This document shows positions 8,755 through 24,579 of a stretch of DNA of 42,974 bases, piece after piece. The stretch comes from a virus: the IMG/VR virus record IMGVR_UViG_3300005563_000050, positions 1 to 42,974 of that record; one strand, given 5' to 3'. The translations under genes were made by a program, and so were the position numbers. The notes under the pieces are model-generated. The model saw nothing but the letters and a program-made list of their open reading frames with translations. It ran no database searches and was not told where the DNA came from. Each line of letters begins with the position of its first letter. Position 1 is the stretch's first letter.

Positions 8755-8772
8755 ATATCCCGATATTAGTGA
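8755..8772. repeat. 18-bp inverted repeat, left arm
   Basis: ATATCCCGATATTAGTGA is the perfect inverted copy of 8968-8985. The two arms are about 195 bases apart and face each other across the AT-rich core. Too far apart for a simple terminator; more like paired protein-binding sites. Confidence 0.7.
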
Positions 8773-8967
8773 AGCAATATGATTTTTATTATAATTACAA
8801 AGCAATATAAAGGCTCACTTTTATACACCATATTATTATGTTATTAACTAAAAACTCATTAAAAACTCAATATCACAACTTTTTATGTCCCTTGGTTAAT
8901 ACACCTAATAACATAATACAATCTTTTATACATATTATTCTATAGTAACAACTTAGATATAATTTTC

Positions 8968-8985
8968 TCACTAATATCGGGATAT
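8968..8985. repeat. 18-bp inverted repeat, right arm
   Basis: TCACTAATATCGGGATAT, the perfect inverted copy of 8755-8772. It ends 10 bases before the -35 of the first early promoter (8996-9025), so a protein bound here could influence that promoter. Confidence 0.7.
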
Positions 8986-8995
8986 TATTCTCCTG

Positions 8996-9025
8996 TTTAC
9001 ATACATCAGTTTTCCATGCTACAAT
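8996..9025 (+). promoter_or_regulatory. Early-block promoter 1
   Basis: TCCTG precedes -35 TTTACA (8996-9001); 18-bp spacer; -10 TACAAT (9020-9025). Expected start near 9032, giving a leader of about 180 bases that contains the structured RNA at 9066-9191. It drives the first early operon (9215-11020), which ends at the terminator near 11035. Confidence 0.7.
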
Positions 9026-9065
9026 GCTCATATTGCATTGCTATGTTTTCATGATTTCCTGCTCA

Positions 9066-9191
9066 CCAGTCCTTCATCGCTAGAAAGCAAACTATGTCGC
9101 CAGTCGGTGGCACGCGAAGGCGTGCATTTCGCCTGTCATCATAGTTTCTAGCGATGATCGCCCAAAGATTAGGGAGGGGCGACCGGACTGG
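9066..9191 (+). ncRNA. Structured leader RNA with a three-way junction
   Basis: Closing stem CCAGTCC (9066-9072) with GGACTGG (9185-9191). Inside, a long arm pairs CATCGCTAGAAA (9075-9086) with TTTCTAGCGATG (9145-9156) and, after a bulge, ACTATG (9091-9096) with CATAGT (9140-9145). Its tip carries GCACGC-GAAG-GCGTGC (9110-9125), which competes with GCGAA (9114-9118) pairing to TTCGC (9128-9132). A second arm pairs TCGCCC (9158-9163) with GGGCGA (9177-9182). All lie between the early promoter and the first early gene. I do not recognise a known riboswitch class. It could be a cis-regulatory leader or a stable small RNA. Confidence 0.65.
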
Positions 9192-9214
9192 CTCCCATTC
9201 TGTAAAAAGAAATC

Positions 9215-9502
9215 ATGAAAACAAATCAACGCAACACGATCATCATCACAGGAACACCCTATGTCGAACGCATCGCAGACACACAGTCACGTGACGACCA
9301 TGACTCGGGACTCACGTCTACTGAATACGCATTCGGCTACAAGGATCTCACAATCAACGGTAAACCACTCACCAAGGACGAAGACAAGTTTATCGTATAT
9401 GCTAACGACCTCTCAGTCGCACGCGCAGAATTCTGGGGCCGCTGGCAAATCTTCATCAAGCGAGCCTTCAATCGCAACTTTGTCCCCATCCTTAACAAAT
9501 AA
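9215..9502 (+). CDS. Unknown early protein
   Basis: A 95-residue protein, first gene after the structured leader. I do not recognise it. It has a beta-like N-terminal half (NTIIITGTPYVERIA, TEYAFGYKDLTINGKPLT) and a helical, basic and aromatic C-terminal half (ARAEFWGRWQIFIKRAFNRNF). No Shine-Dalgarno precedes the ATG, only an A-rich stretch. Its place as the first expressed gene suggests host takeover or early regulation. Confidence 0.6.
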   Translation: MKTNQRNTIIITGTPYVERIADTQSRDDHDSGLTSTEYAFGYKDLTINGKPLTKDEDKFIVYANDLSVARAEFWGRWQIFIKRAFNRNFVPILNK

Positions 9503-23052: not shown

Positions 23053-24579
23053 GTGAGAGAGCTTGTTCCTGATTTAATGTTATTGTTCGATGGTTACCGT
23101 TCCACTTACGGAACCTACAGCACAGATCTGGTAGATCAAGGTGGAGGAAAGATGAAGGGCATTGCGTCAACGGTTAAGGGCGAGGTCACAGTTGAGCTGT
23201 GGACCAAGCACCTTGTTGGTAAGCAAGCCCTCGGGATTATACCGATCGATGAGACATCTAGAGTGAAGTTTGCAGCCATAGACATCGATGAATATCCACT
23301 TGATCTGCAGAAGCTGAATGCTGATATCCAACGTCTGAAGTTACCACTAGTCCTATGCAGGACTAAGTCTGGTGGTGCACACCTGTATGTGTTTCTTGAG
23401 ACGTTTCACGATGCTGCAGTTGTAACCAAGAAGATGCGCGACATAGCCGCGACACTTGGTTATGGCAATGCTGAGATCTTCCCAAAGCAGACCAAGTTGA
23501 TAGCTGAGCGGGGCGATGTGGGGTCTTGGATTAACATGCCATATTTTAACTCAGCTAATACAGACCGGTATGCCTTGGATGATACTGGAAAGCCCCTTAA
23601 TTTCACTGAGTTCATGGTGTATGCGAGATCTAAGATATGCACACCTAATGAGCTTGCAAACAACAAGGCTTCCACAGCTGAGTTACTACCAGGTGGGCCA
23701 CCATGCCTGAATCATCTGTGCTCGATGGGATTTCCAGCTGGCACACGCAATAACGGGTTATTCAATATCGGGGTATACGCCCAGAAGGTGCATGCTGAAC
23801 ATTGGGAGCAGTATCTTCACAAGTATAACCTCGAGTTCATGAATCCTCCGCTCGATACCAGCGAGGTCATGGGCGTCATCAAGTCACTGAAGAAGAAGGA
23901 GTTCAGCTACACTTGCAAGCAAGTCCCTGTCTCCAACTACTGTAACATGCCGAAGTGCCGCCAATGCAAGCACGGTATTGGTGGCAGTGACATGGGCATG
24001 CCTAAGTTCGGCAGCCTCACGAAGATCTTATCAGACCCACCAGTGTGGTTCCTGGAGGTCGAGAGTGGTGGTCGATTGGAGTTGTCTACCGATGACTTGC
24101 AATCAGCGAGAAACTTTCAGAATCGTTGCATGGCCCTACTGAATGTGATGCCAATCATTCCCAAGCCACAGGACTGGCAGGAGATTATTCACAACCTGCT
24201 TAAGGAAGTGACAGAAGTTCCAATACCGTTTGAAGCCACTGTCAAGGGCCAAGTGTGGCACAATCTGGAAGATTTCCTGACTGGTCGAGTCCAAGCCAAG
24301 GTCGTCGATGACTTAGCCTTCGGTAAGCCATACTACCATAATGGGTTCTATTACTTTCGGCACAGGGACTTCCTGGACTATCTTGATCGTAAGAAGTGGC
24401 GTGGTTGTCCACCACACTCGATTGCTGTATACTTCAATGAGTGGGGATTTGAGAAGAAGTTCTGGAATGTTAAGGGCAAGGGAATTAACACCTATGTCGT
24501 GGGCGATGATAAGTTCAATAAGATCGCAGGTAAGATGGATGTTCCCGCAATACCATCCCCTGAGAAGGCACTGTCATGA
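23053..24579 (+). CDS. Archaeo-eukaryotic-type primase (AEP)
   Basis: A 508-residue primase, which makes the RNA or DNA primers for replication. Catalytic motifs of the AEP fold are FAAIDIDEY (Asp77 and Asp79, DhD), KSGGAHLYVF (His110) and NAEIFPKQTKL. The middle region matches the accessory domain of phage AEPs: GGPPCLNHLCSMGFPAGTRNNGLFNIGVYAQ, PPLDTSEVMGVIKSLKKKEFSYTC and CNMPKCRQCKHGIG, with six cysteines (about 218, 223, 288, 297, 302, 305) that may bind zinc or an Fe-S cluster. The start is GTG at 23053 with GAGAGG 6 bases upstream. No TOPRIM primase or DnaB-type helicase domain is present. Confidence 0.85.
   Translation: MRELVPDLMLLFDGYRSTYGTYSTDLVDQGGGKMKGIASTVKGEVTVELWTKHLVGKQALGIIPIDETSRVKFAAIDIDEYPLDLQKLNADIQRLKLPLVLCRTKSGGAHLYVFLETFHDAAVVTKKMRDIAATLGYGNAEIFPKQTKLIAERGDVGSWINMPYFNSANTDRYALDDTGKPLNFTEFMVYARSKICTPNELANNKASTAELLPGGPPCLNHLCSMGFPAGTRNNGLFNIGVYAQKVHAEHWEQYLHKYNLEFMNPPLDTSEVMGVIKSLKKKEFSYTCKQVPVSNYCNMPKCRQCKHGIGGSDMGMPKFGSLTKILSDPPVWFLEVESGGRLELSTDDLQSARNFQNRCMALLNVMPIIPKPQDWQEIIHNLLKEVTEVPIPFEATVKGQVWHNLEDFLTGRVQAKVVDDLAFGKPYYHNGFYYFRHRDFLDYLDRKKWRGCPPHSIAVYFNEWGFEKKFWNVKGKGINTYVVGDDKFNKIAGKMDVPAIPSPEKALS

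Follow-up and report, generated by a model that had tools for sequence, protein, structure and literature searches.

In plasmids, the countertranscribed RNAs CopA and CopT fold as mirror images from both strands at a gene start. The pRNA of phage phi29 (Rfam Phage_pRNA), a phage-encoded RNA shorter than 200 nt, combines paired ends with a three-way junction and lies near a packaging gene, while the N4 early promoters, the Frpo single-strand promoter, and the IncQ ssi sites are DNA hairpin elements. For the rmf candidate motif, it has been proposed that a protein binds its own leader (PMC2864571). Replication template switching has been proposed to create and maintain RNA hairpins, and compensating changes can arise by this route without selection on pairing (PMC8794818). 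The elements reported here apparently form a family of structured phage leader elements undescribed so far; a literature search of open-licence papers found no description of the element.

The element was found in a 42,974-base record of virus DNA (the window). It lies roughly 1.36 kb away from the terminase start, where it occupies the right end of a noncoding, AT-rich stretch. This stretch separates two divergent operons, with the terminase and portal genes leftward and an early region rightward that encodes DNA ligase, DNA polymerase, primase, helicases, and thymidylate synthase. The polymerase belongs to family A, and the early-region primase carries archaeo-eukaryotic primase (AEP) and PriCT_1 domains. 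Located at 23053 to 24579, this primase is related to the AEP domain of TOTE conflict systems. The AT-rich neighboring stretch holds further nested inverted repeats besides the element. They are flanked by an 18-bp perfect inverted repeat, ATATCCCGATATTAGTGA (about 8756 to 8773 and 8969 to 8986), which is origin- or operator-like.

The original prediction described a multi-stem structured RNA at 9066 to 9191, and its closing stem, bulged arm, apical hairpin, and second arm were all found in the computed fold (Table 1). The minimum free energy (MFE) of this segment is -61.3 kcal/mol, compared with a mean of -36.95 kcal/mol for shuffled sequences (z = -6.4; 0 of 200 shuffles as good). Its boundaries were not supported, because the outer stem that pairs the start codon had been missed. 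This stem, P1, is a perfect 15-bp helix (9044-9058/9209-9223) that encloses 9066 to 9191 and includes the ATG of gene 1 at 9215, and the predicted segment is the inner part of the element, comprising P2, the three-way junction, the long arm, and the second arm. Including P1 (9040 to 9225) lowers the MFE to -78.2 kcal/mol (z = -6.8). In transcripts of up to 721 nt with several hundred flanking bases, P1 retains a mean pair probability of about 0.98, and the ATG within it is unpaired with a probability of 0.001 or less.

Table 1. Features of the element and its surroundings (window coordinates)
Feature	Position	Strand	Remarks
Sigma-70-like site TTTACA-18-TACAAT	8996-9025	+	upstream of the element
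P1, 5' arm TGTTTTCATGATTTC	9044-9058	+	perfect complement of 9209-9223; covaries, 100% paired in seven members
Internal loop, 5' side CTGCTCA	9059-9065	+	mostly conserved in alignments
P2, 5' arm CCAGTCC	9066-9072	+	closing stem of the original prediction; pairs with 9185-9191; covaries
P3 lower stem, 5' arm TCATCGCTAGAA	9074-9085	+	pairs with 9146-9157
P3 bulge AGCAA	9086-9090	+	directly 3' of the lower-stem 5' arm
P3 middle stem, 5' arm ACTATG	9091-9096	+	pairs with 9140-9145
Internal-loop motif, 5' half CGCCA	9098-9102	+	in 7 of 7 members; invariant C.A opposition
Apical hairpin GCACGC-GAAG-GCGTGC	9110-9125	+	pair probability 0.98-1.0; sequence varies in relatives
Internal-loop motif, 3' half TGTCA	9134-9138	+	invariant in 7 of 7 members
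P3, 3' arms CATAGT, TTCTAGCGATGA	9140-9157	+	pair with the P3 5' arms
P4 (second arm), loop AAAGATTAGGGAG	9158-9182	+	stem 9158-9163/9177-9182
P2, 3' arm GGACTGG	9185-9191	+	covaries with 9066-9072
Internal loop, 3' side CTCCCATTCTGTAAAAA	9192-9208	+	largely unpaired (computed probabilities)
P1, 3' arm GAAATCATGAAAACA	9209-9223	+	contains start codon 9215-9217
Gene 1	9215-9502	+	95 amino acids; conserved unknown protein

Within the long arm, 12 bp are followed by a 5-nt bulge and then 6 bp (11 plus 6 bp in the original prediction). At the tip, the pairing of GCGAA with TTCGC, which had suggested a switch, did not qualify as a conserved, mutually exclusive alternative: its probability is 0.0, against that of the main hairpin in Table 1, and the tips of the homologues do not have it. 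The P4 loop GGGAG could by eye pair with CTCCC at 9192 to 9196 in the window, but this pairing is not kept in the closest relative, L001, and the P4 loops of the other members are unrelated. The P4 loop sequence GATTARGRAGGG is common to the window and L001 only and was rejected as a conserved feature.

The element is real, conserved, and without a match in Rfam. The original prediction had seen no fit to familiar riboswitch classes, and no Rfam 15 family (riboswitches, Phage_pRNA, c4 antisense, and others) matched the window at or above its gathering threshold; the best permissive match, on the opposite strand, reached 17.7 bits against a threshold of 35. A search of six loci covering five family members likewise gave no Rfam match.

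Including that of the window, seven members were found, all in uncultured phages, and in each of the six other contigs the homologous element lies immediately ahead of where the first early gene starts. The leader of L001 (64% identity in the second gene and 79% in the terminase) has the same place and architecture, with much of the stem sequence changed. Three members (L027, L028, and L029) were found by an inverted-repeat scan upstream of related terminases, and L161 was found by a DNA pattern. A covariance model (R1) built from these four and the window scores the window, itself a training sequence, at 165.5 bits (E = 7e-39). Outside the training set, it recovers L001 at 95.4 bits and finds a seventh, distant member, L415 (record G005), at 50.2 bits (E = 2.3e-11). 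In L415, P1 has a different and shifted sequence, TGATTTGTGGATTCA/TGAATCCACAAATCA, which is again perfect and lies over the start of the gene 1 homologue. Across the family, the element is about 180 to 220 nt long with a perfect P1 of 13 to 17 bp, and the most distant member has an extra hairpin. The unpaired bases around P2, the CGCCA/TGTCA motif, and an ACC junction are conserved across members, as are TCC and an A-run in the loop at 9192 to 9208, where an A-rich stretch precedes the start codon. The P4 stem covaries; its loop and length are variable, and it is much larger in L001. Looser pattern scans of viral and genome collections gave no new member among the matches listed, and a stricter scan of the viral collection gave none beyond the six already known. 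Two further observations concern the relatives. A small early gene of L001 (2580 to 2690) has a long GCT-rich codon run (an alanine-rich repeat), and the corresponding noncoding region of L032 (2316 to 2700), a relative without the element, contains a symmetric array of 16- to 17-bp repeats in both orientations (CCGTAATACACCTTAA and GTGAGATGTGGTCATGT).

Homologous leaders without compensating changes in the stems had been named as the main refutation of the original prediction. Strong two-sided changes occur in 32 of 49 pairs (79 cells) of the seven-sequence alignment, and this refutation therefore fails. The alignment was made with the covariance model, to which it is fitted and towards which it leans; 90.9% of its cells are paired, and its covariation score of 0.635 exceeds all controls (0.166 shuffled and at most 0.117 slid). 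A MAFFT alignment of five sequences, not fitted to the model but with a structure string derived from the same five, has 93.1% of cells paired (72.2% shuffled), with both sides changed in 26 pairs and 52 cells.

The pairing itself is peculiar. Among the cells of the seven members, 308 are Watson-Crick, 1 is G-U, 13 are A.C, and 18 are other, and neither alignment contains a single one-sided change. By comparison, random sets of five from 44 tRNAs of the same contigs show one-sided changes in 8.9% of the changed cells, and G-U makes up 6.5% of pairs in 50 tRNAs of these contigs. By this tRNA yardstick, the chance of 79 cells without a one-sided change is about 6e-4, which is a rough guide only, because the cells are not independent events. 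A complete lack of one-sided changes suggests either that template switching has repaired the arms or that both DNA strands are under constraint, and the pattern as a whole fits three readings, namely, template-switch repair, a function as DNA, and a need for both strands to fold. A pure Watson-Crick pattern would suit a DNA hairpin or cruciform, but template-switch repair yields the same pattern (PMC8794818). The scarcity of wobble is also what constraint or repair acting on DNA would give, and an RNA nature and the plus strand are therefore presumed here.

A possible trace of such repair was found in L161, where 34 bp of gene 1 coding sequence recur as a perfect inverted copy just upstream of P1 (minus strand, about 5874 to 5840 and about 5615 to 5580; score of 68, compared with at most 44 in shuffled sequence). 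This copy is either a footprint of fold-back template switching or an assembly artifact. An outer inverted repeat reaching into gene 1 was rejected as a general feature, as it occurs in L161 only. As a caveat to the main argument, the covariation may be partly mutational. The conserved unpaired bases, the invariant C.A in CGCCA/TGTCA, and the kept architecture argue for selection too, and template-switch repair in the course of replication, added to selection for the fold, best explains why Watson-Crick pairing in the arms is near-perfect.

Gene 1 was seen only in element-bearing records. A profile search for it was positive in five long element-bearing records and in 0 of 11 records without the element; a sixth long element-bearing record (G003) ends inside gene 1, and the 4-kb contig L027 has both. 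The element was not found in MW202510, whose terminase is 66% identical, or in 10 further records without gene 1. The overlap of P1 with the gene 1 start is found in 7 of 7 members: P1 is predicted to cover the whole start codon in six and, in L415, its TG and the following codons, and in each member it runs at least 7 bases from the start codon into the coding sequence. The L415 homologue has 126 amino acids and starts ATGAATCCACAAATCA. The structure, conservation, covariation, start-codon overlap, and co-occurrence with gene 1 are what the analysis shows. Shine-Dalgarno-like sequences were found at 7 of 36 gene starts examined in the window, and gene 1 is without one. The predicted fold of its product (pLDDT of 80) has three strands and a helix. 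Fold matches are weak and nonsignificant (best Z of 5.5; Foldseek E above 0.1), and many are to double-stranded RNA-binding domains and ribosome hibernation factors. Such matches suggest that the gene 1 product may autoregulate its own expression via the element.

Our leading explanation, to which we give about an even chance, is a leader RNA acting in cis, in which the gene 1 start is occluded and which a putative factor, possibly the gene 1 product, opens or holds. The early mRNA (plus strand) would fold over about 180 to 220 nt into P1, an asymmetric internal loop, P2, and the three-way junction. Through P1, a segment about 150 to 200 nt upstream would pair with the gene 1 start codon and the codons after it, and gene 1 translation would therefore be closed by default. 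The A-rich region just 5' of the start would stay single-stranded in the loop, and a factor holding or opening the structure would probably bind at the conserved loop and junction bases; the gene 1 product is a candidate for it. We infer that the element is transcribed, that it controls translation, and that a factor takes part. Of the original prediction, a multi-stem element that precedes the first early gene, lacks an Rfam match, and covaries is supported, and a new phage cis-regulatory element fits, presumably as RNA. Against a leader RNA, the near absence of wobble and of one-sided changes would be unusual under selection solely as RNA, a perfect stem of 13 to 17 bp is very stable for a regulatory switch, template switching can produce compensating changes without selection on pairing (PMC8794818), and the resemblance of gene 1 to RNA-binding domains is below significance. 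The sigma-70-like site upstream of the element was rejected as a conserved promoter at 9025, as relatives lack such a site at the corresponding place; in four members a TATAAT is located 219 to 258 nt 5' of P1, but the DNA there is AT-rich, and such matches commonly arise by chance.

The opposite strand also speaks against a leader RNA, as it folds more stably in 7 of 7 members. This favors a countertranscript, a leftward minus-strand RNA over the gene 1 start in the manner of CopA/CopT, in which both RNAs must fold and G-U would therefore be forbidden on both strands, in agreement with the scarcity of wobble on either. The A.C mismatches of the sense strand become G-U on the opposite strand (13 versus 1), but these represent few independent events, as 7 of the 13 cells are one invariant position and 4 are one column. 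Moreover, no conserved leftward promoter from gene 1 was found among the members, and the tips are not conserved, unlike kissing loops. We regard a countertranscript as quite improbable. The start-codon overlap in all seven members and two C(GNRA)G tetraloop tips on the sense strand (GAAA in L161 and GGGA in L001) favor the sense strand.

Folding of both strands also bears on the possibility that the element acts as DNA, as a hairpin or cruciform between the divergent operons, e.g., a replication origin, a priming site, or a structured promoter. With DNA parameters, z is -8.0 for the plus strand and -10.0 for the minus strand, and G-U is nearly lacking on either strand except where A.C occurs at the P2 ends and at one motif position. 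The nested inverted repeats of the adjoining region, the fold-back footprint at the L161 site, and the combination of primase and polymerase types in this phage are also in keeping with it. A stem on the gene 1 start in every member, including one with a shifted and different P1, would be an odd constraint for a DNA site, however; relatives without gene 1 lack the element too, yet must replicate, and the two GNRA tips lie on the sense strand. A role as DNA in this general sense appears possible but rather unlikely, and we consider a more specific version likewise unlikely. In it, a branched inverted repeat of 180 to 220 nt at the head of the early operon of a dsDNA phage would function as folded DNA, or in both strands simultaneously, would be kept in perfect Watson-Crick pairing by template switching, and would be coupled to a small gene that starts within its outer stem.

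The original prediction also allowed for a stable small RNA acting on the host. The fold of 180 to 220 nt is compact and closed by its own paired ends, as would suit a small RNA acting in trans, or a structure that protects the early mRNA or serves in its processing without directly controlling the start of gene 1. The entry of the outer stem into the coding sequence in 7 of 7 members makes a free-standing small RNA less likely, as does the finding that the element occurs only with gene 1, whose presence it follows; nor was any terminator-like site found 3' of the element. We therefore consider such a role very improbable.

The leader-element family combines strong comparative support with a clear target gene. 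It also offers a compact natural case in which to ask whether perfect compensatory pairing comes from RNA selection or from replication template-switch repair, and because the fold-back footprint of L161 adjoins the element, both ideas are testable at one site.

Among described systems, the DNA hairpin elements (N4, Frpo, and IncQ ssi) likewise consist of Watson-Crick inverted repeats that precede early genes or lie in an origin region. The present element is much larger and branched, its position is tied to the gene 1 start, and the window contains no open reading frame as large as that of the giant N4 virion RNA polymerase. With CopA/CopT it shares mirror-image folding at a gene start, while neither an antisense promoter nor a conserved loop was found here. 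Paired ends, a three-way junction, and a genome-packaging gene not far away are common to the element and phi29 pRNA; unlike that RNA, the element has no Rfam match, overlaps a start codon, and follows gene 1 rather than the packaging genes, which are present in element-less relatives too. In autoregulated bacterial and phage mRNA leaders that sequester a start codon, such as those of ribosomal-protein genes and the rmf motif (PMC2864571), a structured 5' leader likewise adjoins the gene it would control. The fold and genes differ, most genes of this phage are without a Shine-Dalgarno sequence, and here the start codon lies inside a perfect stem of 13 to 17 bp over a multi-helix junction.
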